In this document: positions 1 to 25,026 of the stretch, piece by piece
Position numbering within the stretch: position 1 is the first letter of the stretch
Layout: the number at the start of each line of letters is the position of its first letter
NCBI GenBank assembly: GCA_021107755.1
Contig: JAIOSF010000013.1
Coordinates: forward strand, 62,001-126,000
Direction: 5' to 3'
Source: Arcobacteraceae bacterium
Lineage (GTDB): Bacteria; Campylobacterota; Campylobacteria; Campylobacterales; Arcobacteraceae
DNA: 64,000 bases
Notes under the pieces: generated by a model
What the model saw: only the letters and a program-made list of their open reading frames with translations
What the model was told of the DNA's origin: nothing
Database searches by the model: none
Program-made: the position numbers and the translations under genes

Positions 1-249
1 GTGAAAAAGCCTCTTTGTTTAGGTGATAATAGATTTGAACTTATACCCCTAATTGGTAAAGAAGTTCCTAGTACAAAAGTATATATGAGACCAAAAATTG
101 GTATGAAAACTGATGATATAAATGAGAATGGGACACTATACACTTTTGAAAATTTAAATTTTGAGGGTGAAAATATCCAAAAAGGGAAACTAGAAAAAGT
201 GCGAAAATATATGACACTAATGATAGATTTTATAAAGAGAGAGAAATAA
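1..249 (+). CDS. Unrecognised protein, probably the 3' end of a gene cut by the window
   Basis: An open frame of 82 codons runs from the first base to a TAA that overlaps the cbiC start by one base (TAATG). The GTG at base 1 may only be an internal valine codon, so the true start may lie outside the window. The readable part has no signal peptide or membrane segment and ends in a lysine-rich, probably helical tail. I do not recognise the family. Tight coupling to cbiC suggests the same corrinoid operon, but that is inference. Sequence to the left of the window would settle both length and identity. Confidence 0.55.
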   Translation: MKKPLCLGDNRFELIPLIGKEVPSTKVYMRPKIGMKTDDINENGTLYTFENLNFEGENIQKGKLEKVRKYMTLMIDFIKREK

Positions 250-959
250 TGGAATTTAAACAAGAACAACCACCTATAAATATTGGTGCTGATATATCTG
301 TAAAGTCATTTGAGATGATTGAAAAAGAACTTCAGGAGTATCCAAAAGCAAAAGAATTTAATAAAAATCAATTAGAAGTGATAAGTAGACTTATCCATAC
401 AACTACTTGTTTTGAGGAAGTTTTAGAAAATATTTTTTTCACAGACAATGCAATTGTTAGAATTCAAGAGTTACTTAAAAATAAAGCCAAAATAATAGTG
501 GATGTCAATATGATAAAAGTTGGTTTGAGTGACTTCTATCTAAAAACTTATGATAATGAAGTGGTTTGTTATATAAACGAACCATTTACTTATGAAATGG
601 CAGAAAAAAATAAAACAACAAGAAGTTACGCTGCTGTTGTAGAAGCGATCAAAAAACACAAAAATGAGCCAATTATACTTGCTTGTGGGAATGCCCCTAC
701 TTTTATCTACGCAGCGATTAATACTCTACTTGATGAGGAAGTTGACCTTAAAAATGTAGCATTTCTACTATTTCCTGTAGGATTTGTAAATGTTGTAGAG
801 TCAAAAGATTATGGAAAAAGATTCTGTGAACATTTTGATATACCTGCTGTTATTATGGAGGGAAGATTTGGTAGTTCTACTATGACGGTTGCTACTCTTC
901 ATGCCACATATAAATTAATCAAAGATTTTGATGGTAAAGATAAGTATAATGGAAAATAA
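249..959 (+). CDS. cbiC: Cobalt-precorrin-8X methylmutase CbiC
   Basis: The 236-residue product matches the CbiC/CobH family, which moves a methyl group from C11 to C12 of (cobalt-)precorrin-8 to give (cobalt-)hydrogenobyrinate in the cytoplasm. The typical C-terminal half is visible: a TRSYAA stretch near residue 120, then ACGNAPTF, LLFPVGFVNVVESK and EGRFGSSTMTVA. The family histidine usually placed near residue 40-50 fits the RLIHTTTCFEE segment. It starts one base before the upstream stop and its last 11 bases overlap the next gene, so translation is coupled. Length is slightly above the usual 200-220 residues because of an N-terminal extension. Confidence 0.93.
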   Translation: MEFKQEQPPINIGADISVKSFEMIEKELQEYPKAKEFNKNQLEVISRLIHTTTCFEEVLENIFFTDNAIVRIQELLKNKAKIIVDVNMIKVGLSDFYLKTYDNEVVCYINEPFTYEMAEKNKTTRSYAAVVEAIKKHKNEPIILACGNAPTFIYAAINTLLDEEVDLKNVAFLLFPVGFVNVVESKDYGKRFCEHFDIPAVIMEGRFGSSTMTVATLHATYKLIKDFDGKDKYNGK

Positions 960-1398
960 AACTTATAATACAATGGGGAGTGAAGTACTTGAAGGCTTTA
1001 CCTGTAAACCAAAAAAGCTAGACCCAGATAAACCTATTATGTTTTTTAAAACACAGATTTTTATTTGCGATGGTGAACGATGTTCAAAAGCACAAAAAGA
1101 TGATGATTTAGCGGGAAGGTTAAGAGGTATTTTAAAAGAGTTACAACTTCATAAAGGGAAAAATCGTATAAAAATATCAAGAACTAATTGTTTTGGCGCT
1201 TGTAGATTTAGACAAGTTGCTGTAGCTTTTGAAAATACAAAAGCAAATGGAAACTTAGAAAATAATAATATTTGGCTAAAAAATATTCATAAATTTGATG
1301 ATATAAAATGGAAAGAGTTATTTTTGGATTTAAGCACAGATAAACCACTTGATGAGTTATCTTATGAACAAGTACCAATGAGTGGATTAGATGAGTAA
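949..1398 (+). CDS. Thioredoxin-fold [2Fe-2S] ferredoxin in the cobalamin operon
   Basis: The product has 149 residues from the ATG at 949. A longer frame from TTG 928 lies deeper inside cbiC and is less likely. Four cysteines stand in the pattern of a thioredoxin-like [2Fe-2S] ferredoxin: C40-x4-C45, and C81-x3-C85 within NCFGACRF. Such proteins pass single electrons to oxidoreductases. It lies between cbiC and cobA and overlaps both (11 and 8 bases), so it is very probably made together with the corrin enzymes. No precorrin-6A reductase (cbiJ) is seen in the window, so a role in a reductive step of ring synthesis or cobalt reduction is possible. That is inference only. Confidence 0.75.
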   Translation: MENKTYNTMGSEVLEGFTCKPKKLDPDKPIMFFKTQIFICDGERCSKAQKDDDLAGRLRGILKELQLHKGKNRIKISRTNCFGACRFRQVAVAFENTKANGNLENNNIWLKNIHKFDDIKWKELFLDLSTDKPLDELSYEQVPMSGLDE

Positions 1399-2125
1399 AA
1401 AAGTATATTTAGTAGGAGCAGGTCCTGGAGATGTTGAACTTCTTACACTAAAAGCTCTAAGAATACTAGAAGTTGCAGATGTTGTTTTGTATGATGCCCT
1501 TGTAAATGAGAAAATTTTAGATTTTTGTAAAAAAGATGTAATAAAAACCAATGTAGGGAAAAGAAAAGACCATCATCTAAAAAAACAAGAAGAGATAAAT
1601 AGTTTAATAGTAGAATATGCAAAAGAATACAAGATAGTTGTTCGACTTAAAGGTGGAACACCTTTTGTATTTGGTAGAGGATATGAAGAGGTACGAGCTA
1701 TAGTTGAAGCTGGGTTTGAACCAGTTATTATAAGTGGAGTGAGTTCTACTACAAGTGTTCCTGAAAGCTTTATGATACCATCTATTGATAGAGCTTATAG
1801 TGACTCGTATAGAACTATTACAGGTCATGATATAGAGATTTTTGATGAGATAGTAACAACTTTTCACCCAAGGGAAAATCTTGTAATTATGATGGGAATA
1901 CATAATTTAGAAAAAATAGTAAATAATTTACTTCAAAAAGATTTTCCAAGTTCTATGCCAATAGCTATATTAAGCAACGGTACAAAGAAAGAGGCTAAAA
2001 AAATAGTATCAACACTAGAAAAGATAAGTAACCAAAAAGAGGAGTTTTTCAGTGATATTAAAACTCTTACACCAGCTATTATTTTTGTGGGGGAAACTAT
2101 AAATGCTTCCAATTATTGTAACTAA
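1391..2125 (+). CDS. cobA: Uroporphyrinogen-III C-methyltransferase (SUMT)
   Basis: A tetrapyrrole methylase of 244 residues that uses two S-adenosylmethionine molecules to turn uroporphyrinogen III into precorrin-2, the branch point to siroheme and cobalamin. The N-terminus carries the class motif VYLVGAGPGDVELLTLKA followed by ADVVLYDALV. The glycine-rich VRLKGGTPFVFGRG loop near residue 85 is characteristic of SUMT and separates it from the later ring methylases. Length is normal for a single-domain CobA rather than a CysG fusion. It overlaps the ferredoxin gene (8 bases) and the precorrin-2 dehydrogenase gene (23 bases), within the operon. Confidence 0.93.
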   Translation: MSKKVYLVGAGPGDVELLTLKALRILEVADVVLYDALVNEKILDFCKKDVIKTNVGKRKDHHLKKQEEINSLIVEYAKEYKIVVRLKGGTPFVFGRGYEEVRAIVEAGFEPVIISGVSSTTSVPESFMIPSIDRAYSDSYRTITGHDIEIFDEIVTTFHPRENLVIMMGIHNLEKIVNNLLQKDFPSSMPIAILSNGTKKEAKKIVSTLEKISNQKEEFFSDIKTLTPAIIFVGETINASNYCN

Positions 2126-2543
2126 AAAACAAAAAGTTCTTATTATAGGAGCTGGTAAGGCTTGTGAGATAAAATTAAGAGTTTTATCAAATCATCCCTG
2201 TCACATAACAGTTGTAGCAGATCAGTTTTTGTGTAAACTAGATGAACATATAGAAAAAATACATGAAAGTTTTGAAGAGTTAAATGAAGCGTTTTTTGAA
2301 CCATTTGATTTAATATATATTGGTATTCCTCTAAAAAACAATGATATGGTGGAAAAACTTCTAAAAACTAAGATGGTAAATGTATTATCAAATCCAAGTT
2401 TAAGTAGTTTTATCCACCCTTGTACAAGAGATGATGGAGATATAATGGTTAGTGTCAATAATATCAATACCATAAATCCCAAAAAAGCTTGCAGTTGGGC
2501 AAATCAGTTTATAGAATATAAAAAATGTCAGAAAAACAACTAA
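2103..2543 (+). CDS. Precorrin-2 dehydrogenase (SirC/Met8 N-terminal type), short
   Basis: The 146-residue protein begins with a strand and the Rossmann motif VLIIGAGKACEIKLRVL, which is the NAD-binding start of Met8/SirC/CysG-B proteins that oxidise precorrin-2 to sirohydrochlorin. It continues through a typical LIYIGIPLKNN strand and a SFIHPCTRDDGDIMVSV segment similar to the family's ...PA...RG.l.iaist region. It stops there, so the C-terminal dimerisation and chelatase part of a normal protein of about 200 residues is absent. That argues for a dehydrogenase-only enzyme, with metal insertion by another protein. It overlaps cobA by 23 and cbiD by 19 bases. No gene symbol is given because naming varies. 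Confidence 0.8.
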   Translation: MLPIIVTKKQKVLIIGAGKACEIKLRVLSNHPCHITVVADQFLCKLDEHIEKIHESFEELNEAFFEPFDLIYIGIPLKNNDMVEKLLKTKMVNVLSNPSLSSFIHPCTRDDGDIMVSVNNINTINPKKACSWANQFIEYKKCQKNN

Positions 2544-3547
2544 GAAAAGGCTATACAACAGGTGCACATACCTATATAATATTTAGGTCTGCATTGTATT
2601 GTTTTTTAACTATAAAAGAATTGTCAATATCAAAAACAAATAAAATGGATAATGATGATTTAGATGTAACAAAAGGATGTGAAATAATTGTAACTATCAG
2701 TACTAATAGTAAAGATTTAACACTAAACAACATTAAGCATCAACCCTCTACATATATATCAGGTTCAAATAAACTATCACTGTATGCAGGAGAAGGTGTA
2801 GGTGTTGTTACTAAAAAAGGTTTAAAAATAGCACCAAATTTTCCAGCAATTAATCCAGCTCCAAGAGATGCTATATTTGAAGCTTTTAATGAGATAACTC
2901 AAGGGTATGAAAATTTAGATTTATGCTGTAGTGTTAGTGTAACAGATGGTGAAAATATCGCACGACAAACAGCAAATTCAAAAGTTGGAGTTATGGGTGG
3001 TATATCAATTTTGGGAACAAAAGGGATTGTAAAACCTATATCAAGTTCAGCTTATATAGATTCTGTAAAAACTGAGATAGAGTTTGCTGTTAAAAATGAA
3101 TATAATACTTTATATTTTACATTAGGTAATTCAGCTTTTGAAGTAGCAAAAAAGCATTCAAATGAAGAAGCTATTATTGAAATTGGTAATTTTATATATG
3201 ATTCTATTGAATTAGCTGTTGATTTGAATGTAAATGAAGTGGTTTTTTTATGTGGTATAGGTAAAATGACAAAAGTTTATCAAGGCTTTAAAAATACACA
3301 TAATCGTTTTGGAGTTATAGACTTTGAATTACTCCAAAAAGATATTAAAGAAGAACTAGATTATGAGGTTGATATAGAATCAACCTTGACAGTAAAAGGG
3401 ATATCACAAGAGCTTGAAAAAGTTGGACTTTTAGAGAAATTTTATACTATGATAACTCAAAAAGCAAATGAACAAATAAAGCTATGGCATAAAAAATCTA
3501 ATGTAAAAGCAATAATACTAGAACAAAAGGATGTATTAGGATGGTAA
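2525..3547 (+). CDS. cbiD: Cobalt-precorrin-5B (C1)-methyltransferase CbiD
   Basis: CbiD adds the C1 methyl group in the anaerobic, early-cobalt pathway, using S-adenosylmethionine. It is not related to the tetrapyrrole methylase fold. The N-terminal LRKGYTTGAHTY motif replaces the more usual GYTTGTCA form. The family's PAINPAPRDAI segment near residue 110, the ANSKVGVMGGISILGTKGI block near 155-175 and the later FLCGIGKMTK stretch are all present. At 340 residues it is of normal length. It overlaps the upstream gene (19 bases) and the cbiE-cbiT fusion (7 bases). Together with CbiG it marks the pathway as the anaerobic type. Confidence 0.92.
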   Translation: MSEKQLRKGYTTGAHTYIIFRSALYCFLTIKELSISKTNKMDNDDLDVTKGCEIIVTISTNSKDLTLNNIKHQPSTYISGSNKLSLYAGEGVGVVTKKGLKIAPNFPAINPAPRDAIFEAFNEITQGYENLDLCCSVSVTDGENIARQTANSKVGVMGGISILGTKGIVKPISSSAYIDSVKTEIEFAVKNEYNTLYFTLGNSAFEVAKKHSNEEAIIEIGNFIYDSIELAVDLNVNEVVFLCGIGKMTKVYQGFKNTHNRFGVIDFELLQKDIKEELDYEVDIESTLTVKGISQELEKVGLLEKFYTMITQKANEQIKLWHKKSNVKAIILEQKDVLGW

Positions 3548-4716
3548 CAATTGTAGGAAATGGAATGGGTGCATATAATTTTGATAACATTACTATTGAT
3601 TTAAAAAAGTATGACACAATTCTTTGTGATATAAACTTTCAACTAGAAGCAAAGAATATATTAAAACTAAAATTTAAAGAGATAAAAGAGTATATTTTTC
3701 AAAATTATGCAAAAGAAAATATTCTTTATGTAGTGACAGGAAGTCCCCTCTTTTTTAGTGCAGGGACACTTATCGCAAATTTAATACTAAAAGATAAAGT
3801 AACGCTTATTAATAATACTTCATCAAAAGATTATATGATGGAAAAATTGTTTATAGGTGAAGCTAGTTTAGAATCTATCTCACTCCATGGACGAAAAGAT
3901 ATTGATTTGTCAAAGTTTTTAACAAATATTTATACCTTTATTCTTTGTGATAAAGACTCTTGTGATAAGATTTCTAAAGCTGTGAACTATTTAAATAAAA
4001 ATGATATAGAAGTAACTATAGGGTATAAACTAGGCTATGAAGATGAAGTTATTGAGCAAATTGATATATTTGGCTTTGACTATAGAGCCTTTGATTTATC
4101 ACAGCCCTATGTACTACTTATCAAAAGACTTTTTAAACCATCAAATGGTCTGAGTGAAGATATTGATTTTGATACACAAAGAGGGATGATAACAAAAAAA
4201 TATAAAAGACAATTATCCCTTCAAAACTTAGATTTAGAACCAAATCAACTTTTATGGGATATAGGAGCTGGAAGTGGCTCTTGCGGTATAGAAGCATATA
4301 ATAGATACAAAACTAGGACAATATTTTTTGAAAAAAATGAAGAGAGAATAGTTAATATTAAAAATAATTTAACCAATCATCATATTGTAGATTGTGAACT
4401 CTTTGTAGGAGAAGCACAAGATAAATTTGAAAGTTTAGAAGAAAATCCATCACGAATTTTTGTAGGAGGTGGTGGTGAAGAAGTTATAAAAAAACTTCCA
4501 TATCTTTATAGAAGACTAGAAAATGATGGGATAATGTTAATAAATGCAATAACATTAAAACATCTTGCTTTAATGCATACAATTTTAAATGAATCAAATA
4601 TAGAGTATGAAGTACACTCAATAAGTCTAACTACATATAAAGGAGAACTTGATTTAGTAGAGCCTGAGAGACAATTATTTCAAATAAAAATATTTAAAAT
4701 AAAGGAAGAAAAATGA
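3541..4716 (+). CDS. CbiE-CbiT fusion: cobalt-precorrin-7 C5-methylase / C15-methylating decarboxylase
   Basis: Two catalytic domains are joined in 391 residues, as in CobL. The first (about residues 1-200) is a CbiE-type tetrapyrrole methylase beginning MVTIVGNGMGAYNF, with a VVTGSPLFFS loop near residue 65. The second (about 210-391) is a CbiT-type Rossmann methyltransferase, which methylates C15 and decarboxylates the C12 acetate side chain. It starts with RGMITKKYKRQLSL, has the SAM loop LWDIGAGSGSCGIEAY, and later IFVGGGGEEV. The CbiE half is rather divergent. It overlaps cbiD by 7 and cbiF by 4 bases (ATGA). Confidence 0.9.
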   Translation: MVTIVGNGMGAYNFDNITIDLKKYDTILCDINFQLEAKNILKLKFKEIKEYIFQNYAKENILYVVTGSPLFFSAGTLIANLILKDKVTLINNTSSKDYMMEKLFIGEASLESISLHGRKDIDLSKFLTNIYTFILCDKDSCDKISKAVNYLNKNDIEVTIGYKLGYEDEVIEQIDIFGFDYRAFDLSQPYVLLIKRLFKPSNGLSEDIDFDTQRGMITKKYKRQLSLQNLDLEPNQLLWDIGAGSGSCGIEAYNRYKTRTIFFEKNEERIVNIKNNLTNHHIVDCELFVGEAQDKFESLEENPSRIFVGGGGEEVIKKLPYLYRRLENDGIMLINAITLKHLALMHTILNESNIEYEVHSISLTTYKGELDLVEPERQLFQIKIFKIKEEK

Positions 4717-5456
4717 TATATTTTATCGGAGCAGGACCTGGTGATCCTGAACTTGTAACAGTAAAAGCTATGAATATACTCAAAATTGCCGATGTTGTTC
4801 TTTATACAGGTTCATTAGTTCCAAAAGAGGTGTTAAGTTGGTGTAAAAATGATGCTTTAGTAGTAGATAGCCAAGGGATGAAATACCCTGAAATATTTGA
4901 GTTTTTAACAACACATAAAGATAAAATAGTAGCACGAGTTCATACAGGAGATCCTTCTATTTACTCAACTATTGCTAAACAAATAGAATACCTAAAAGAG
5001 CAAAATATACAATATAGTGTAATACCAGGTATTACTGCTGCTTTTGGAGCTGCTGCTTCTTTGGGTATAGAGTATACTATCCCTGGTGTTTCTCAAACTA
5101 TTATTTTAACAAGAATTGAGGGTAAAACACCAAATCCTGAGAAACTGGAGAATATCTTAGCTTGTAAGAATTCATCACTTGCTTTTTATCTTTCAATTTT
5201 ATTAATTAAAAAATTAAAAAAGACAGCCTTAAAGCTAGGATATAGTGCAGATACTCCTTGTTGGGTAGTAGAAAAAGCTACTTGGAAAGAGGAACAAATT
5301 TACAAAGGAACAATCAGTAATATAGAAGATAAAGTATCTCATATAAAAGGTGTAGCACTTATACTTTTTGGAGACTATTTACATCAAAAAGAGACAGAAG
5401 AATCACATCTTTATGTAAAACCACTGATAAAAGAGTTAGAGGATAAAAAGTGTTAA
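4713..5456 (+). CDS. cbiF: Cobalt-precorrin-4 C11-methyltransferase CbiF
   Basis: A tetrapyrrole methylase of 247 residues that methylates C11 of cobalt-precorrin-4. It opens with the class motif IYFIGAGPGDPELVTVKA and then ADVVLYTGSLVPKEVL. The TGSLVP segment is typical of CbiF/CobM and distinguishes it from CobA (YDALV) and CbiH. The RVHTGDPSIYS loop near residue 85 and VIPGITAAFGAAASLG near 110-125 form the substrate pocket in the family. The start overlaps cbiE-cbiT by 4 bases, and the end overlaps the GTG start of cbiG by 7 bases. Confidence 0.93.
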   Translation: MIYFIGAGPGDPELVTVKAMNILKIADVVLYTGSLVPKEVLSWCKNDALVVDSQGMKYPEIFEFLTTHKDKIVARVHTGDPSIYSTIAKQIEYLKEQNIQYSVIPGITAAFGAAASLGIEYTIPGVSQTIILTRIEGKTPNPEKLENILACKNSSLAFYLSILLIKKLKKTALKLGYSADTPCWVVEKATWKEEQIYKGTISNIEDKVSHIKGVALILFGDYLHQKETEESHLYVKPLIKELEDKKC

Positions 5457-6472
5457 AAATAGCAATAATATCTATAAATCAACCTAGTTTAAATAGTGCA
5501 GTAAGACTTAGTGAATATCTTAATGAATATGAAGTTGATATTTATGGTAAAAAAGGTTTAGACCATAACTTTGACAATCTTCTTACTTATGAAAAAATCG
5601 ATACTGTTTTAGAAAATGGTTGGAAAAAATATGATGCAATCATATGTATCTTAGCTATGGGGATAGTTGTACGAAAAATAGCCCCACTTTTAGAGTCAAA
5701 AGCAACTGACCCTGCTATATTGGTGATGAGTATTGATTTATCAAAAGTGATACCGCTTCTTAGTGGTCATATAGGTGGTGCAAATGAATTAAGTGATCTT
5801 ATAGCCCAAAAAATAGATGGTTGTATAAACTTCATCTCAACAGCAACGGATCAAGTAAAAGTATTTGCATTTGATATGTTTGCAAAAAAGTACAATATGA
5901 AAATAGAAAATCTTCATAAATTAGCAAATATCTCAAATCGATTGATAAACAAACAAAAAGTCAAAGTATATAGTTATAAAAGTATCTTTGAAACTATTGA
6001 AGATAAAGCAAATTTAGAGTTGGTATCAAGTAGTGCTGATATAGATAAAAATACAGTTATCATCAACCCTTTTAACCATAGTAATGATAATTTGCATTTA
6101 AAACCTAAAATATATTTAGGAGTTGGGTGTAATAGAGATACAAGTTTTGAAAATATAGAGAAAGCTTTTATATGGTTTTTAGATAAATATAATTTAGAGA
6201 AAGAACAGATAGAAAATATAGCTTCATTTGAAGCAAAAAAAGATGAAAAGGGGCTTTTAAAGTTTGCAAATAAATATAACTTTGCAATAAAGTTTTTTGA
6301 TGAAAATCAAATAAATAGTTTAGAGGGTGAATTTAGTCCATCACAAGCAACCAAATTTTTTGGACTAAAAGGTGTTGCTGAACCATCAGGGCTATTAATT
6401 TCAAAGTATAGAGAGTTAATAATACCTAAAGAGGTTTATGAGAAAAAAATAACAATAGCAGGAGCGATGTAA
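5450..6472 (+). CDS. cbiG: Cobalt-precorrin-5A hydrolase CbiG
   Basis: CbiG opens the delta-lactone ring of cobalt-precorrin-5A and releases acetaldehyde, which is the ring-contraction step of the oxygen-independent pathway. The protein has 340 residues. The central domain shows MGIVVRKIAPLLESK followed by PLLSGHIGGANELSDLIA, the most conserved blocks of the family. The C-terminal domain has IYLGVGCNRDTSFENIEKA and later FGLKGVAEPSGLL, typical of the CbiG C-terminus. The start is GTG at 5450, overlapping cbiF by 7 bases. Its presence, with cbiD, is the best evidence in the window for anaerobic corrin-ring synthesis. Confidence 0.92.
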   Translation: MLKIAIISINQPSLNSAVRLSEYLNEYEVDIYGKKGLDHNFDNLLTYEKIDTVLENGWKKYDAIICILAMGIVVRKIAPLLESKATDPAILVMSIDLSKVIPLLSGHIGGANELSDLIAQKIDGCINFISTATDQVKVFAFDMFAKKYNMKIENLHKLANISNRLINKQKVKVYSYKSIFETIEDKANLELVSSSADIDKNTVIINPFNHSNDNLHLKPKIYLGVGCNRDTSFENIEKAFIWFLDKYNLEKEQIENIASFEAKKDEKGLLKFANKYNFAIKFFDENQINSLEGEFSPSQATKFFGLKGVAEPSGLLISKYRELIIPKEVYEKKITIAGAM

Positions 6473-6475
6473 AAT

Positions 6476-7255
6476 ATGAATAAATTATATATAGTAAGTA
6501 GTGGTGCTGGTGGAATACACTATATCACACCTGATGCAAAACAAGCTTTAGATGAGTGTGAAGTGGTTGTCTCTTATACAAAATATGCAAAAGAATTAAA
6601 TGAACTACTTGAGGGAAAAGAGATTTATACTTCTGGGATGACACATGAGATTGAAAGATGTAATCAAGCTATAGAATCAGCAAAGTCCGGTAAAACCACT
6701 TGTATCATCTCAAATGGCGATGCAAATGTCTTCGGTATGGCTACACTTATAGTGGAATTAATAGATGAAAAAAACTTATGGGATGAGATAGAACTTATTT
6801 CAATTCCTGGGGTTACTTCTTTTTTAGCAGCTGCATCAAAAGTAGGAGCACCTGTTTCGGGTGATTTTGCTATTATTTCACTCTCTGATAGGCTTACAGA
6901 TATAAATCTAATAGATAAAAGGGTAAAATACGCCCTAGAATGTGATTTTGTAATAGGTATTTATAATCCAAAATCAAAAAAAAGGATTCAACCATATCAA
7001 AATTTTTTAGCAAGATTAAGTGAGGTTGATGAAAAAATCGCCATAATTGCTCAAAATGTAGGAAGAGATGAGAAAGAAGGTATAACTATCACTACTACAA
7101 TAGAACTAATAGAGCAAGGTATAGCCCATGAAAAAGTGGGAATGAATACTATGATAATAATTTGTAATTCAAATACACGACTTACAAAAAATGGCTTAGT
7201 ACTCACTCCAAGAGGATACTTAAATAAATATGATACTCAAGGTGAATTAATATAG
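6476..7255 (+). CDS. cbiH: Cobalt-precorrin-3B C17-methyltransferase CbiH
   Basis: A tetrapyrrole methylase of 259 residues assigned to CbiH/CobJ, the ring-contracting C17 methylase. The N-terminus reads LYIVSSGAGGIHYITPDA, in the place of the usual GxGxG-D/P loop. It is followed by VVVSYTKYAKEL, the Y-x-x-Y pattern typical of CobJ/CbiH. ISNGDANVFGMATL near residue 85 corresponds to the family S.GD.GvygMa block, and IPGVTSFLAAASKVGAPVSGDF matches the CbiH pocket. Later FVIGIYNPKSKKR is also diagnostic. It sits three bases after cbiG and abuts cbiA. Confidence 0.92.
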   Translation: MNKLYIVSSGAGGIHYITPDAKQALDECEVVVSYTKYAKELNELLEGKEIYTSGMTHEIERCNQAIESAKSGKTTCIISNGDANVFGMATLIVELIDEKNLWDEIELISIPGVTSFLAAASKVGAPVSGDFAIISLSDRLTDINLIDKRVKYALECDFVIGIYNPKSKKRIQPYQNFLARLSEVDEKIAIIAQNVGRDEKEGITITTTIELIEQGIAHEKVGMNTMIIICNSNTRLTKNGLVLTPRGYLNKYDTQGELI

Positions 7256-8515
7256 ATGTTAAACTTTTGTATAAGTGCCATCGCTTCCAATCAAGGCAAA
7301 ACAATCCTTACTACAGCCCTACTTTATCATTATAAAGATTCGGTGCGTCCATTTAAGATAGGACCTGATTATATAGACCCGCAGTTTCATAAACAAGTAT
7401 CTGGAACACCTAGTATTAATCTTGATAGATTTATGATGAACGAAAAGCAAATAAAATGGCTTTATAACCACTATAGTGATAAAAAAGTCTCTATTTGTGA
7501 GGGTGTTATGGGGTTTTATGATGGAAGTGATAAAAAAAGTAGCGCCTATGACCTCTCAAAGCTTTTAAACATACCAACAGTTTTACTTCTTGATGGAAGT
7601 GGAAGCTATATCACAGTTAGTGCTGTTTTAAAGGGTCTAAAAAGCTATAAGCAAGATAACACTATAAAAGCTGTGATATTAAATAAAATATCCTCTACAA
7701 GGCATTATGAGCTTATTAAACAACAAATACTAAAAGATTTTGATGATATAGTCGTTGTAGGTTGGATTCAAAATGATATTAAAAGCTTAAGCGATACACA
7801 TCTTGGGCTTGATCTAAACGATCTATCCAAAATAGAACAAATAAGTAAAGAGGTTTTAGAACATATAGATTTAAAAGCTTTAGAAAGTATAGGGAAAAGA
7901 AATAAGAAAAAAAATCAAGATTATCCTTTTGAGATTTTAGAAAAACAAAACAAACATCTAGCTATAGTCAATGATGAAAACTTCTCTTTTCTATACCATG
8001 ATAATCTAGAGTTTTTTAAAACAGTATTTGAAAAAGTCACAATAATAAGTGCTACAAAAGATGAAGAGATACCAAAAGACACAGATATAGTGTATATTTG
8101 CGGTGGCTATGTAGAGAGCGATAAAGCCTACGAAAAGATAAAAAACTCTACTAAGTTTCAAAACTCACTTATCAATCATAGTCTTACAAAAAAGATATAT
8201 GCAGAGTGTGCAGGGCTTTTGTATCTTGGAAACAGAGTGAATGAAAAAGGTATGAGTGGTATTTTAGATGTGAATTTTACTTTAGAAAAAAGATTTACTA
8301 GACTTGGCTACTACTACAACGAAGCTTGTATAAAAGGGCACAGTTTTCATTATACCAAAGCAATTGATGATAGCAAAGGCTTTGATATATTATCTAAACA
8401 ACCAAAGGGTGAGGGAAAAACTGGAAGCTGGGCAAATGAAGATAAAAATGTTTTTGGTACCTACTTGCATACTATGTTTAGAAATAATATAACATTAATT
8501 AAACAAAAATTTTAA
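7256..8515 (+). CDS. cbiA: Cobyrinate a,c-diamide synthase CbiA
   Basis: CbiA uses glutamine and ATP to amidate the a and c side chains of cobyrinic acid. The N-terminal dethiobiotin-synthetase-like domain shows ASNQGKTILTTALL (P-loop), then FKIGPDYIDPQFH and CEGVMGFYDG. The C-terminal class I glutamine amidotransferase-like domain has YICGGYVES and YAECAGLLYLG, with the cysteine in the position of the nucleophile, and ends with HSFHYT and FGTYLHTMF, where the last histidine of the triad belongs. At 419 residues the length is a little under the usual 450. It starts directly after the cbiH stop. Confidence 0.93.
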   Translation: MLNFCISAIASNQGKTILTTALLYHYKDSVRPFKIGPDYIDPQFHKQVSGTPSINLDRFMMNEKQIKWLYNHYSDKKVSICEGVMGFYDGSDKKSSAYDLSKLLNIPTVLLLDGSGSYITVSAVLKGLKSYKQDNTIKAVILNKISSTRHYELIKQQILKDFDDIVVVGWIQNDIKSLSDTHLGLDLNDLSKIEQISKEVLEHIDLKALESIGKRNKKKNQDYPFEILEKQNKHLAIVNDENFSFLYHDNLEFFKTVFEKVTIISATKDEEIPKDTDIVYICGGYVESDKAYEKIKNSTKFQNSLINHSLTKKIYAECAGLLYLGNRVNEKGMSGILDVNFTLEKRFTRLGYYYNEACIKGHSFHYTKAIDDSKGFDILSKQPKGEGKTGSWANEDKNVFGTYLHTMFRNNITLIKQKF

Positions 8516-8562: not shown

Positions 8563-8706
8563 ATGAAATTAAAAGATATATTATTTTGGATATTTTTAGC
8601 AGCAGTTGCATTTTTTTACCTCTTCAAGGGGAATGATATGTATACTGAAAAAAGGGAAAAAATTAATCAAGTTTTTTCTCAAGATAGTAATACAACAATC
8701 AAGTAA
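8563..8706 (+). CDS. 47-residue single-span membrane protein between cbiA and bluB
   Basis: A short frame begins at ATG 8563, 47 bases after cbiA and preceded by AGGA, and ends TAA at 8706, two bases before the bluB ATG. After a positively charged start (MKLK) it has one clear membrane span at about residues 6-21 (ILFWIFLAAVAFFYLF), then a polar tail of about 25 residues. I do not recognise a family. The ribosome site, the hydrophobic pattern and the tight placement inside the operon support a real gene. A role in cobalt or corrinoid transport, as for small subunits such as CbtB or CbiN, is possible, but no histidine motif of those proteins is present. Confidence 0.55.
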   Translation: MKLKDILFWIFLAAVAFFYLFKGNDMYTEKREKINQVFSQDSNTTIK

Positions 8707-8708
8707 TA

Positions 8709-9332
8709 ATGATATTTACTAAAAAACAAGCAAAAATATTAAGTGATATAATTCTACACCGCCGCGATGTAAGAGGGAATAACTTCTTATCTAAAAAGAT
8801 TAAAAAGCAAGATATAACTGCTATTTTAAATGCTGGTATCCATGCACCCTCAGTAGGTTTTTCTCAGCCTTGGAAGTTTATGGTTATAGAAGATGCAAAG
8901 ATTAAAAATAAAATCTACAATAACTTCAAAAAATCCTACGATAAAAGTAAAAAACACTTCAAAAAAAGAGAACTTTACAGCTCACTAAAATTAGAAGGTA
9001 TCAAAGAAACCCCTCTAAATATCGCAGTATTTTATAAAAAGCCTATAAAAAAAGTCTTAGGACAAACAAGCTCACAAAAAATGGGTGAGTATAGTGTTGT
9101 TTGTGCTATTCAAAATATGTGGCTTATGGCTCGTAGTCTTAATATAGGGATAGGTTGGGTAAGTATCATCAATCATAAAAAAGTACAAAAAACACTCCAA
9201 GTAAGTGATGAATACAAACTTATAGGATATCTTTGTGTTGGTTATACGAAACAATTTTTAGATATTCCAGAGTTAGAAACTTTACAATGGGAAAAGAAAA
9301 AAGAATTTGAAGAGGTTGTAAGTTGGGTGTAA
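8709..9332 (+). CDS. bluB: 5,6-dimethylbenzimidazole synthase BluB
   Basis: BluB is a flavin-destructase of the nitroreductase fold that breaks FMNH2 with oxygen to give 5,6-dimethylbenzimidazole, the lower ligand of cobalamin. The 207-residue protein has the early RRDVRGNNFLSKK segment, then AGIHAPSVGFSQPWKFMV (SVGxxQPW is characteristic of BluB), and a C-terminal AIQNMWLMARSLNIGIGWVSI block. It starts two bases after the small membrane protein gene and overlaps the kinase gene by 10 bases. Since the reaction needs oxygen while the ring pathway here is oxygen-independent, the host is likely to live at low oxygen. Confidence 0.92.
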   Translation: MIFTKKQAKILSDIILHRRDVRGNNFLSKKIKKQDITAILNAGIHAPSVGFSQPWKFMVIEDAKIKNKIYNNFKKSYDKSKKHFKKRELYSSLKLEGIKETPLNIAVFYKKPIKKVLGQTSSQKMGEYSVVCAIQNMWLMARSLNIGIGWVSIINHKKVQKTLQVSDEYKLIGYLCVGYTKQFLDIPELETLQWEKKKEFEEVVSWV

Positions 9333-10102
9333 AAATAAAAATTACTCAAAAAGATTTACCAAAATACTATAGAAACTTTCCTCTTATAGAAACAATTGAT
9401 GGTGCTCAAAGTAGTGTATACTTATTGGGGGATAAGTATGTACTAAAGATTTATGATGAACCTCACTATAATATAGAGGATGAAATAAATCTGTTAAATA
9501 CAATTAGGGAATTAAGTGTTATACAATATGTAGAGCATATTATACTCAAAGGGTATAATTGTATACTTTATGAACAAATAATTGGCAATAGTATATACAA
9601 ACCAGAGATAAAACATATAAAGCAGACTGCCCTCTTTCTTAAGGACTTACATATGAAAACAGCTAAATTAGTATCAAATAACACCAATTTATTTGATAAA
9701 AATAGCTTAAATTATGTATTGTCAAAAAGGGGAATAAGTATATTACAAAACTATCTTGAAGATATAGATATAGAATTAAAAAATGATGGCATTATTCATG
9801 GAGATATTTTTCCTGATAATGTGAAATGGCAAAATGATGAGTTAAGTGGAGTGTATGATTTTAGTGAAGCTTGCAATGGTGATTTTGTTTTTGATTTAGC
9901 TGTTATTGCTAGTTCTTGGTGTTTTGATAATGATACCCCCAACTATGAGAAGATTAATGCCCTGCTCTCTTCGTATAAGTTAGATATGCCATTAGTTGAG
10001 TTTAAAGAGTATATTAAATATGCTTTGGTATATTATGCTACAAAAAGATATTTAGATAATAGAAACTATAAAGAGTTGATAGAAAGATTGGAAAATATAT
10101 GA
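9323..10102 (+). CDS. APH/choline-kinase-fold phosphotransferase, candidate L-threonine kinase
   Basis: A kinase of the aminoglycoside phosphotransferase superfamily (259 residues, TTG start at 9323). YVLKIYDEP (K42) fits the ATP-binding lysine strand. IIHGDIFPDNVKW gives the catalytic HGD-x4-N set (D161, N166), and GVYDFSEA near residue 180 supplies the metal-binding aspartate. It overlaps bluB by 10 and cobD by 4 bases. CobD needs L-threonine O-3-phosphate, made in other bacteria by the GHMP-fold kinase PduX or by BluE, neither of which is seen here. Related APH-fold enzymes include ThrB-type homoserine kinases. I infer, without proof, that it phosphorylates L-threonine. An alpha-ribazole or other small-molecule kinase is the alternative. 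Confidence 0.75.
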   Translation: MGVKIKITQKDLPKYYRNFPLIETIDGAQSSVYLLGDKYVLKIYDEPHYNIEDEINLLNTIRELSVIQYVEHIILKGYNCILYEQIIGNSIYKPEIKHIKQTALFLKDLHMKTAKLVSNNTNLFDKNSLNYVLSKRGISILQNYLEDIDIELKNDGIIHGDIFPDNVKWQNDELSGVYDFSEACNGDFVFDLAVIASSWCFDNDTPNYEKINALLSSYKLDMPLVEFKEYIKYALVYYATKRYLDNRNYKELIERLENI

Positions 10103-11112
10103 ATTTTAAACATGGTGGGGATGTAGAAGCTTTTGCATCACAGGTTGGTTGTAGTGTTGATGAAGTAATTGATCTCTCTTCAAATATAAACTTCCTAAAA
10201 CCAGAGATAAGCTTTGATTTTAATAGTTTAGATATCTCTGCTTATCCTACTTATGATATCCTTTATAACACTATAGGAGAGCTTTATAATATTGAAAGTT
10301 CTGAAATGGAGCTGTTTAATGGTGGTAGTAGTGCTATATTTAGTTTGTTTCGCCTCTTTAGTACTACTACTGTAAATATTTATAGTCCAGCATATTTAGA
10401 ATACAAAAAAGCAGCTACAAGGCTCAACTACAATATTGAGCTAATAAATCGCTTCACAGAACTTCACAAAGAGGTATCAGAAGGCTCTTTAGTAGTATTT
10501 GTGAATCCTACTACTCCTGAGGGGAGTTTTTATGATATAGAGAAGCTTATGGACTCTTGGATGAAAAAAAACTGTACTATACTCATAGATGAATCATTTT
10601 TGGATTTTACAAATCATAAATCCTCTAGAGAGTATCTAAAACACTATGATAAGCTTTATATACTCAAATCTATGACAAAGTTTTATAGTAGTGCGGGGAT
10701 TAGACTAGGTGTTGTAGTTTCAAATAGTGAAAATATAAAACAACTCAAAGCCTGCGAACCACTTTGGAAAATATCACAGTTTGATAGTCATTATATACAA
10801 CACGCTTTAAAAGATGAAAACTTTTCTAAAATATCAAAGGCTGTGAATATAACAAACAAAGAATATCTCAAACAAATAATTAAAAATTTTAAATATACAC
10901 AACATATCATAGATTCGGATGCTAATTTTATATTGGTACAACTAAAAACTATCGATGCCCCTACTTTTCAAGAATTTTTAAAACCTTATAAAATTATGGT
11001 GCGAGATTGTTCAAACTTTGACTTTTTAGATGAAAGTTTTGTACGCATTGCGGTAAAAAGTCAAAAAGATTTAGAGATTTTAGAAAAGAGTTTACAAAAA
11101 ATTGTTCGTTGA
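10099..11112 (+). CDS. cobD: L-threonine-O-3-phosphate decarboxylase CobD (PLP, class I/II aminotransferase fold)
   Basis: The 337-residue protein is a pyridoxal-phosphate enzyme of the histidinol-phosphate aminotransferase type. It starts FKHGGDVEAFA, the HGG motif typical of Salmonella-type CobD/CobC, and continues with IDLSSNINFL. FVNPTTPEG is the usual NPxxPxG block, ILIDESFLDF holds the cofactor-contacting aspartate, and LKSMTKFYSSAGIRLG carries the Schiff-base lysine and phosphate-binding arginine. It would produce (R)-1-amino-2-propanol phosphate for CbiB. The name follows Salmonella usage; in Pseudomonas cobD denotes the CbiB protein. It overlaps the kinase gene (4 bases) and cbiB (11 bases). 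Confidence 0.9.
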   Translation: MNFKHGGDVEAFASQVGCSVDEVIDLSSNINFLKPEISFDFNSLDISAYPTYDILYNTIGELYNIESSEMELFNGGSSAIFSLFRLFSTTTVNIYSPAYLEYKKAATRLNYNIELINRFTELHKEVSEGSLVVFVNPTTPEGSFYDIEKLMDSWMKKNCTILIDESFLDFTNHKSSREYLKHYDKLYILKSMTKFYSSAGIRLGVVVSNSENIKQLKACEPLWKISQFDSHYIQHALKDENFSKISKAVNITNKEYLKQIIKNFKYTQHIIDSDANFILVQLKTIDAPTFQEFLKPYKIMVRDCSNFDFLDESFVRIAVKSQKDLEILEKSLQKIVR

Positions 11113-11980
11113 ACTGACACTTATTGCTTATATAATAGATAAAATCTTTGGAGAATTCAAATTTCTCAAACATCCTATTGTTTTTATGGGTGATTTTATT
11201 TTATTTTTTGAAAAACATTTTTATAAAGATAGTATTTTAAGAGGTGCTATGCTTACTATTTCACTTCTACTTATTGTGTTTATCATAACTTTTACTTTTG
11301 ATTATTTTATTGACAATGTTTTTATTCTAGCTTTTTTAGCCTCTTTTGGGATAGCTTCAAATATGTTGTATGAGAGTGTCAAAGATATTATTCAAAATCC
11401 TCAAAATATAAAATACCTCGTAAGCCGAGATACTCAAAACCTATCTCAAAGTGATATAAATAAAGCAGCCATAGAAACTTATAGTGAAAATCTAAGCGAT
11501 GGTGTTATAGCACCTTTGTTTTATCTCTTAATGTTTGGGATTGTTGGTTTATTTATCTACAAAGCTATTAATACCCTTGATTCTATGGTGGGATATAGAA
11601 ATCCAAGATATGAAAAGTTTGGCAAAATAAGTGCGATACTAGATGATATAGTCAATTATATCCCATCAAGAATTACAGCTATTATAATATCTACCCTATT
11701 TCTTAGTAAAAAAGCACTGTTACATTTTAGTAAATATGGAAAACTTCACGAAAGTCCAAATGCAGGATACCCTATATCTGCTATGGCACTAAGCCTAGGT
11801 TTAAAACTTGGTGGGGATACTTCTTATTTTGGAGTTATAAAACATAAGCCTTACTTTGGAGATGGTAAAAAAATTATAGAAACAAGTGACATAAAAAAAT
11901 CACTTGATTTTCAAATAAGACTAGATATCTTTCTTATGTTTATATTACTTGTTTGTATCTTTAATCCATTTTCCCAATAG
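11102..11980 (+). CDS. cbiB: Adenosylcobinamide-phosphate synthase CbiB
   Basis: An integral membrane enzyme of 292 residues that attaches aminopropanol (phosphate) to adenosylcobyric acid. Recognisable CbiB blocks are HPIVFMGDFI near the N-terminus, AIETYSENLSDGVIAPLFYLL, INTLDSMVGYRN, and LHESPNAGYPISAMALSLGLKLGG. Several hydrophobic spans are visible at about residues 45-65, 70-90, 145-160, 190-210 and 270-288. Translation starts at TTG 11102, overlapping cobD. The 3' end overlaps the convergent HMA-protein gene by 20 bases, so the operon ends here without an obvious intrinsic terminator. Confidence 0.92.
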   Translation: MFVELTLIAYIIDKIFGEFKFLKHPIVFMGDFILFFEKHFYKDSILRGAMLTISLLLIVFIITFTFDYFIDNVFILAFLASFGIASNMLYESVKDIIQNPQNIKYLVSRDTQNLSQSDINKAAIETYSENLSDGVIAPLFYLLMFGIVGLFIYKAINTLDSMVGYRNPRYEKFGKISAILDDIVNYIPSRITAIIISTLFLSKKALLHFSKYGKLHESPNAGYPISAMALSLGLKLGGDTSYFGVIKHKPYFGDGKKIIETSDIKKSLDFQIRLDIFLMFILLVCIFNPFSQ

Positions 11981-22940: not shown

Positions 22941-24287
22941 TTACTTACGACACTTTGCTATATCTTTAACAACCATATATTTATCAAACTCCTCTTCACT
23001 TAATAAAGCTAATTGAAGTGCTGACTCTTTGAGTGTGAGATTATTTTTATAAGCAAACTGTACTATCTTTTCTGAGTTTTTATATCCTATGTGTGGATTT
23101 AAAGCTGTTACACACATGAAAGCATTGTTGAGATTTTCTTTTATTTTCTCTTTATTTACACCCAGACCATCGATACAATTTTTACTAAAAGAGTTTATAC
23201 CATCAGTCAAAAGTCTTATAGATTGTAAAAGATTGTAGATAATTACAGGTTTAAAAACATTCAGTTCAAAATTTCCTTGGCTAGAAGCCATACTTATGGT
23301 TGTATGATTTCCCATCACTTGCGTTGCAATCATTGTGATAGCCTCAGCTTGTGTTGGATTTACTTTTCCTGGCATTATAGAACTACCTTTTTCATTTGCA
23401 GGAATTGTTAACTCCCCTAGCCCACATTTTGGACCACTACTTAACCAGCGTATATCATTTGCTATTTTCATCATATTTGTTGCAAGTGCATTTAAAGCAC
23501 CGCTTAAAAAAGTTTCACTATCGTGAGAAGTTAAAGAGTGAAATTTATTTGGATGGGAGATAAACTGTGTTTGAAGTAAACTATTAAGCTCATCACACAC
23601 TTGTTGAGAGAAGTTTGATGGAGTATTTATCCCATTTCCAACAGCTGTTGCTCCTATTGGAAGTTCATTGATATATTTGAGTGTATCTTTGATTTGTGAT
23701 TTTGAGTGTTCTAACATAGAAATATAGCCACTTAACTCATCACTTAAAAAAAGTGGTACAGCATCTTGAAGATGTGTTCGCCCTACTTTTACAATACCTT
23801 CAAACTCTTTTTGTTTTATTTGAAAACTTTCTATGAGTGTATCTATCGCTTCTAAAAGTGCAGGTATTTGAAGTGTTGTAGCTATCTTCATAGCTGTTGG
23901 AAAAGTATCATTGCTACTTTGAGACATATTTACATCATCGTTTGGATGAATAGGTATACTATTATCCAATTGAGTAGCTCTATTTGCTATCACTTCGTTA
24001 AGATTCATATTGGTATGTGTACCACTTCCTGTTTGCCATACATGCAAAGGAAATTGTTCAGTGTGTTTGTTTCCAATAATCTCATTACAAACTTGTACTA
24101 TTAGTTGTGATTTTTGCTTTTCTAGTTTTCTACAACTGTTATTTACAATAGCACAACACTTTTTTAAATATGCATAAGCTTTTATAAACTCATCAGGCAT
24201 AGTTTCAATACCTATATTAAAATTGTTTAAACTTTTTTGCGTCTCATCTCCCCATAAAGGATTAATATTTGTGTTTTGAGTATTCAT
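22941..24287 (-). CDS. fumC: Class II fumarate hydratase FumC
   Basis: FumC interconverts fumarate and malate without an iron-sulfur cluster. The 448-residue protein belongs to the fumarase/aspartase superfamily. It shows WQTGSGTHTNMNLNEVIANR, the substrate loop MSQSSNDTFPTA, GRTHLQDAVP with the catalytic histidine, and the signature GSSIMPGKVNPTQAEA. The first block favours fumarase over aspartase. Length is slightly under the usual 460. It is convergent with the FtsL-like gene, separated by three bases. Confidence 0.9.
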   Translation of the reverse strand: MNTQNTNINPLWGDETQKSLNNFNIGIETMPDEFIKAYAYLKKCCAIVNNSCRKLEKQKSQLIVQVCNEIIGNKHTEQFPLHVWQTGSGTHTNMNLNEVIANRATQLDNSIPIHPNDDVNMSQSSNDTFPTAMKIATTLQIPALLEAIDTLIESFQIKQKEFEGIVKVGRTHLQDAVPLFLSDELSGYISMLEHSKSQIKDTLKYINELPIGATAVGNGINTPSNFSQQVCDELNSLLQTQFISHPNKFHSLTSHDSETFLSGALNALATNMMKIANDIRWLSSGPKCGLGELTIPANEKGSSIMPGKVNPTQAEAITMIATQVMGNHTTISMASSQGNFELNVFKPVIIYNLLQSIRLLTDGINSFSKNCIDGLGVNKEKIKENLNNAFMCVTALNPHIGYKNSEKIVQFAYKNNLTLKESALQLALLSEEEFDKYMVVKDIAKCRK

Positions 24288-24375
24288 AACAATAGTCTAT
24301 ACCCAATCAAATAAATTGTTACTTAATAGCAACTGTTAAAAAATCTTAGGATATTTAATAAAAATTGAAAGTACT

Positions 24376-25026
24376 TTATCTACGGTACAACTTAATAGCA
24401 AGAAATAACACTATACCAAGAACTAAAATAAACCATATAACAGAACTATTAAACATATTCATGAAGGTAATAAGCTCATCTAAAAGTAATCCCCACATAA
24501 TCATAGCTATTATTGTAGCAATAAATACAGTTATCATAATAGTAACATCTCTTAGTCCAATCAAATATCCAATAATTGCACCAACTATTGGTCCTGTCAT
24601 CCAAAAAGGTATAAATACAAAAACAAATAACCCTAAGATACCATATTTATCAAAGAGTATTGTATATTTAATTTTATACTTTTTTATTTTTTTAAAAAAA
24701 CTATCTAAATAGTTCATTTGTACAATATTTTGATAACGAAATACAAAAGTAGCATATAAAAGTGTAACCATTGTCATCTCAATATATACATTTGTAGCTA
24801 TTACCCAAAAGTGAGATAACTCAGAGGCATACCCTAAAGAGAGAGATGGGACTCTCCCTACTGCAATATTTGCTATTACCATTGCTGAAATTTTATTTGC
24901 AAAAGTTGAATCGATAAAATAAAATGTAAGGATAAAGCCACTTAAAAATATCACCAAAACAATACCCAAAAGGAGTATTTTTCCATGACTTGTAGCTAAA
25001 ATTGTTTTATAGTGTTTTAAATTCAT
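24376..25026 (-). CDS. Small multidrug-export-family membrane protein (Sm_multidrug_ex type)
   Basis: A 216-residue polytopic protein with about five membrane spans (near residues 18-38, 72-90, 118-140, 142-162, 176-215). The segment FVFIPFWMTGPIVGAIIGYLIGL resembles the conserved hydrophobic hairpin of the small multidrug export protein family, whose real function is poorly known. It has a proline-rich re-entrant look similar to DedA-like proteins. Its start overlaps the end of the 992-residue gene by one base (ATGA-type coupling), so the two are likely translated together. Confidence 0.65.
   Translation of the reverse strand: MNLKHYKTILATSHGKILLLGIVLVIFLSGFILTFYFIDSTFANKISAMVIANIAVGRVPSLSLGYASELSHFWVIATNVYIEMTMVTLLYATFVFRYQNIVQMNYLDSFFKKIKKYKIKYTILFDKYGILGLFVFVFIPFWMTGPIVGAIIGYLIGLRDVTIMITVFIATIIAMIMWGLLLDELITFMNMFNSSVIWFILVLGIVLFLAIKLYRR

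Follow-up and report, generated by a model that had tools for sequence, protein, structure and literature searches.

A candidate L-threonine kinase of the APH fold in the cobalamin loci of Campylobacterales

Introduction

The decarboxylase CobD of cobalamin (B12) synthesis uses L-threonine O-3-phosphate, and the known bacterial kinases that make it are PduX and BluE (PMC6249242; PMC7242693). Most cobamide producers verified by experiment have no pduX, according to Shelton et al. (PMC6461909), and L-threonine kinase, EC 2.7.1.177, was recorded as an open gap for Haloferax (PMC8305020). Reconstructions of the B12 pathway repeatedly leave the threonine kinase step as a hole.

PduX of Salmonella has the GHMP fold, and its nearest NCBIfam model was the GHMP homoserine kinase TIGR00191 (6.6e-8). 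In the Rhodobacterales, BluE stands in functionally for PduX (PMC6249242). A putative BluE/PduX-like protein, encoded ahead of cbiB in Paracoccus, was marginally GHMP (17.8 bits) and not APH. In Methanosarcina mazei, MM2060 is a bifunctional kinase and decarboxylase CobD, going by a title in the references of PMC6461909; kinase and threonine-phosphate decarboxylase are there joined in one protein, whereas the locus described here has two coupled genes. Within the Campylobacterales, the Sulfurospirillum norcobamide route concerns the same linker step, and SMUL_1544 was proposed in a proteomics paper to make ethanolamine phosphate (PMC4585668).

Gene context of the kinase

The window, a stretch of 64,000 nt from an Arcobacteraceae bacterium, opened within a de novo corrin-ring cluster: cbiL spanned its left end and a cobalt chelatase gene lay just upstream. 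After this cluster came bluB, the kinase gene, cobD and cbiB (Table 1). The first-pass annotation had placed the kinase gene between bluB and cobD with an overlap on either side; these overlaps measured 10 nt with bluB and 4 nt (ATGA) with cobD, and a further 11-nt overlap joined cobD and cbiB. The kinase gene is translationally coupled to both bluB and cobD, in an operon of the order bluB-kinase-cobD-cbiB. Its TTG start is credible, since a Shine-Dalgarno-like motif precedes it and most relatives open with the same MGVKT-like N-terminus (MG[VI]K). The window CobD aligned with Salmonella CobD (1LC5) over the full length (4.3e-22). Neither the window nor the stretch upstream of it nor the cobT locus gave an Rfam match to a cobalamin riboswitch at gathering score.

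In most of the order's complete ring clusters, cobH is separated from cobA/cbiD by the gene for a ferredoxin-like Cys protein (156 aa; window 928-1398) with no Pfam or NCBIfam match. As the corrin-ring cluster of the window contained no recognised cbiJ/cobK reductase, this protein may assist in the cbiJ/cobK step or substitute for the enzyme.

Table 1. Positions of the kinase gene, its motifs and neighbours in the window, and of related genes in other genomes (locus label before the colon).
Feature	Position	Strand	Basis or remark
Corrin-ring genes cobH/cbiC, ferredoxin-like, cobA, sirC-like, cbiD, cbiET, cbiF, cbiG, cbiH, cbiA	249..8515	+	
bluB, dimethylbenzimidazole synthase	8709..9332	+	TIGR02476, 200 bits (cut-off 150)
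Shine-Dalgarno-like AGAGG	9311..9315	+	Sequence; 7 nt 5' of kinase TTG start
APH-fold kinase, candidate L-threonine kinase (P0001)	9323..10102	+	259 aa, TTG start; intact ORF
K42, kinase-type lysine	9446..9448	+	Invariant in family; T in nearly all ThrB2
Catalytic loop HGDIFPDN, residues 159-166	9797..9820	+	Family alignment
Metal-binding DF, residues 179-180	9857..9862	+	Family alignment
cobD, L-threonine-O-3-phosphate decarboxylase	10099..11112	+	Best match TIGR01140, 2.8e-63, 214 bits, below the 290 cut-off
cbiB, adenosylcobinamide-phosphate synthase	11102..11980	+	TIGR00380 above cut-off; PF03186, 4.8e-81
BluB-CobT fusion	L204:13042-14784	-	
BluB-CobT fusion	L205:4186-5895	+	
Divergent APH protein of G157	L237:2096-2854		Directly 3' of cbiH

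Fold and relation to homoserine kinases

The sole Pfam match of the kinase was PF01636 (APH), at E = 7e-18 and 65.7 bits against a gathering cut-off of 23.2. The HGD-x4-N and DF motifs, described earlier as intact, were so in the family alignment as well: H159, D161, F163, D165 and N166 were invariant in 27 family members and in ThrB2, and D179 was invariant too.

A relation to ThrB-type homoserine kinases had also been proposed, and sequence and structure searches agreed with it. The nearest NCBIfam model was NF003558, a homoserine kinase (3.3e-24), and the nearest PDB sequence was the homoserine kinase 2PPQ (8.4e-14). An AlphaFold2 model of the kinase (pLDDT 93.5, pTM 0.90) returned 2PPQ as the top Foldseek match (2e-15, TM 0.80 on the query). 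Like ThrB2/thrB_alt (NF003558, TIGR00938; 2PPQ) the kinase has the APH fold from end to end; its N-terminal MGVKT is similar to the MAVYT of ThrB2, and the HxDLFxDN and DF motifs, Y218 and R242 occur in both. R242 was dropped as a substrate-specific residue after it was found in other APH-fold kinases as well. A role in aminoglycoside resistance was dropped on account of the homoserine kinase match and the B12 neighbours.

The kinase differed from ThrB2 in several respects. It scored 85.4 bits with NF003558 and 73.3 bits with TIGR00938, below their cut-offs of 271 and 255.9; six diverse relatives reached 68-86 bits with the NF003558-type model, against 345-366 bits for two true ThrB2 proteins. 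It was about 25% identical to ThrB2, 50-60 residues shorter and B12-linked. Position 54 was acidic in the family (once Q; E54 in the kinase) and F or Y in ThrB2. The ThrB2-invariant N30, N197 and R222, and R237, mostly conserved in ThrB2, were replaced in the kinase and nearly all relatives. In a tree, a single branch parted the Campylobacterota family from ThrB2, with a support of 8 for all 31 rows and 83 for the core 29. Because it falls far below the cut-off, keeps K42 and an acidic position 54, and is missing ThrB2-invariant residues, the kinase is best classed, by sequence, as a relative of the APH-type homoserine kinases and not itself a ThrB2. These replacements also make any transfer of substrate from ThrB2 weak; no known substrate site is conserved in the kinase.

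In ThrB2 proteins (e.g., L107 and L122), T and F/Y replace the lysine and partner glutamate that kinases usually have; the B12-linked family keeps both.

Distribution of the family and linkage to B12 genes

Among 249 genomes of the order Campylobacterales, 30 contained a match to the kinase. One match (G202) was marginal and was missed by the family profile, leaving 29 carriers. In 25 of these 29 the gene lay inside a B12 locus, in arrangements that included cbiB-kinase-cobD (Nitratifractor), cobD-kinase-cbiB, bluB-kinase-cobT-cobU-cobD, kinase-cbiL-cbiK and cobD-kinase. As the partners varied, the link between kinase and B12 genes has survived rearrangement. In the other four carriers (G005, G011, G163 and G207) no B12 locus was recognisable around the gene. 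Kinase and CbiB occurred together in 27 genomes, the kinase only in two, CbiB only in 20 and neither in 200 (Fisher p = 3e-21, a value that ignores kinship). The link of the kinase to B12 loci is not due to chance.

CbiD was absent from 13 of the kinase carriers. A corrin-ring role was dropped for this reason, and the kinase belongs to a later portion of the pathway, one that is shared. Outside the Campylobacterota, no B12-linked member was present among the 80 best loci; the remainder were ThrB2-like and not in B12 loci. The proteins very likely form a B12 kinase family that is, within the data searched, confined to the Campylobacterota. No report linking this family to B12 synthesis turned up in a search of the open-access literature.

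Search for PduX-type kinases

GHMP kinases were counted in 49 B12 genomes, namely 47 with CbiB and two more with the kinase. Exactly two were present in 43 genomes, three in five and one in a single genome. The two in the window's genome were an IspE-like protein (by sequence) and ThrB (TIGR00191, 284.6 bits against 168). In two of the five genomes with a third copy the locus was read, and the copies resembled sugar-kinase or sugar-locus genes by eye. A true PduX scored 45.7 bits with PF00288, so the GHMP search would have seen a PduX. A direct search of the 49 genomes with Salmonella PduX and the Paracoccus PduX/BluE-like protein, run without a positive control, returned nothing. The earlier statement that no PduX-like GHMP kinase is visible in the window therefore extends to the whole genome and to 48 related B12 genomes.

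The window's genome encoded CobD, CbiB, CbiP, CobU, CobT (TIGR00303 above cut-off) and CobS, with the genes for CobT, CobU, CobS and CbiP on another contig. Since these enzymes were present, the threonine kinase is the remaining gap among the nucleotide-loop enzymes checked in this genome. Roles as an adenosylcobinamide kinase or as a housekeeping homoserine kinase were set aside as unneeded, given CobU and the GHMP ThrB, respectively.

Genomes with CobD and without the family

CobD proteins that scored 135 bits or more against the CobD of the window were counted as true. They occurred in 41 genomes, of which 28 contained the kinase family and 13 did not. Several of the 13 were fragmented; G016, G120, G217 and G244 were about 99-100% complete and in few contigs. 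G004 and G157 encoded a distant APH protein that scored about 80 bits with the family profile, directly after cbiH in G157 (Table 1) and away from B12 genes in G004; both proteins keep the ThrB2-like N30 and R222. Neither the family nor PduX was found in the remaining exceptions. A replacement kinase beside cobD in family-less genomes was considered and dropped, the neighbours and APH genes read being AmgK-like, fructosamine-kinase-like or unrelated.

Four Sulfurospirillum-type genomes (G020, G139, G172 and G194) encoded CbiB and CbiD, but their only CobD was divergent, at 47 bits, and the kinase family was absent. On plasmid pSulSP (Sulfurospirillum sp. 'SP'), which has the same gene order, a gene was annotated as 'norcobamide biosynthesis serine-O-phosphate decarboxylase'. 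The proposed starting compound of this route is serine phosphate, a product of serine synthesis, so no threonine kinase would be needed. The absence of the kinase from Sulfurospirillum agrees with a role as L-threonine kinase. No bluB was present in the stretch read of these four genomes, which makes the contrast, taken alone, compatible with a role in alpha-ribazole phosphorylation too.

Discussion

The kinase is probably an L-threonine kinase that replaces PduX or BluE, with substrate and place in the pathway deduced from its coupling to cobD, the order-wide linkage to B12 genes, the failure to find a PduX-type kinase and the presence of the other nucleotide-loop enzymes. Its homology to an amino-acid kinase points the same way, homoserine and threonine being isomers. 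The enzyme would convert ATP and L-threonine to L-threonine O-3-phosphate and supply this to CobD, which would decarboxylate it to (R)-1-amino-2-propanol O-2-phosphate; CbiB would then join this product to adenosylcobyric acid. A relative of APH-fold ThrB2 would thereby carry out the step of PduX in Salmonella and of BluE in the Rhodobacterales. The reaction proposed is the same in all three. PduX and the kinase have unrelated folds and sequences with no meaningful alignment, and each is nearest to the homoserine kinase of its own fold.

Alternatively, the enzyme might be an alpha-ribazole kinase that serves CobS by salvage; in Firmicutes this role falls to CblS, and the folds are unrelated. 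The commonest immediate neighbours were bluB or cobT, which are lower-ligand genes, and in many loci cobD was not adjacent; the gene was also missing from some cobD-bearing genomes, as expected of an accessory salvage gene. This role is nevertheless unlikely, as CobT already makes alpha-ribazole phosphate in the window's genome, several carriers had the gene beside cobD or cbiB with no bluB within the 20 kb read, and homology is closest to kinases of amino acids and not of nucleosides. Direct action on (R)-1-amino-2-propanol or ethanolamine, bypassing CobD or salvaging the alcohol, is very unlikely: the coupled cobD would be redundant, Sulfurospirillum requires ethanolamine phosphate yet is without the gene, and the homology is to homoserine kinase, even though the APH fold covers choline and ethanolamine kinases and the gene adjoined cobD and cbiB in several genomes.

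A second homoserine kinase (ThrB2), present in the B12 operon by accident, would account for the best NCBIfam and PDB matches. It is the most improbable reading in view of the score (85 bits against 271, with relatives at 68-86 and two true ThrB2 at 345-366), the GHMP ThrB above cut-off in the same genome, the position of the family on its own side of a weakly supported branch from ThrB2, the missing ThrB2-invariant residues and the conserved B12 linkage. The difference between the substrate site of the kinase and that of ThrB2 could instead reflect some other B12-related phosphorylation or a regulatory role outside the known pathway, but this is distinctly unlikely with an obvious unfilled kinase step within the same operon.

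The proposal of the first-pass annotation that an APH-fold enzyme fills the PduX step was upheld as regards a B12-linked, ThrB-related gene in genomes where no PduX-type kinase was found; the gene is not the only means of supplying the step. The family was associated with cobD and cbiB and no other threonine kinase was found, yet 13 cobD-bearing genomes were without a close family member or PduX. These exceptions tell most heavily against assigning one gene to one step: where neither the family nor PduX was found, threonine phosphate must come from elsewhere or the linker must differ.

On balance, the Campylobacterales probably have their own B12 L-threonine kinase from the APH homoserine-kinase lineage, parallel to PduX near the GHMP homoserine kinase. 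As PduX is nearest to a GHMP homoserine kinase, threonine kinase activity here would be a case of convergence: two unrelated homoserine-kinase folds would each have given a B12 threonine kinase. The reaction itself is known; as far as the literature found goes, the APH fold is new for this step. The candidate family would fill the hole in an ecologically important order, permit annotation and offer a testable example of homoserine kinases being recruited by convergence.

Other features of the B12 loci and the window

Many B12 loci of the order (L222:9237-9662; also L187, L209, L225, L226 and many others) encoded, beside cobD, cbiB, cobS or the kinase gene, a Cys-rich protein some 140 aa long with a weak PF04071 match. 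The genomes G152 and G141, which belong to one genus, have BluB and a TIGR00303-type CobT fused in a single frame of 569-580 aa (Table 1). Within the window, the 193-nt gap between cbiA and bluB was filled by an ORF of 47 aa (8563-8706) that probably encodes a single membrane helix, and GC content dropped to 22.5% over positions 24001-28000, against about 28-32% in the flanking sequence.
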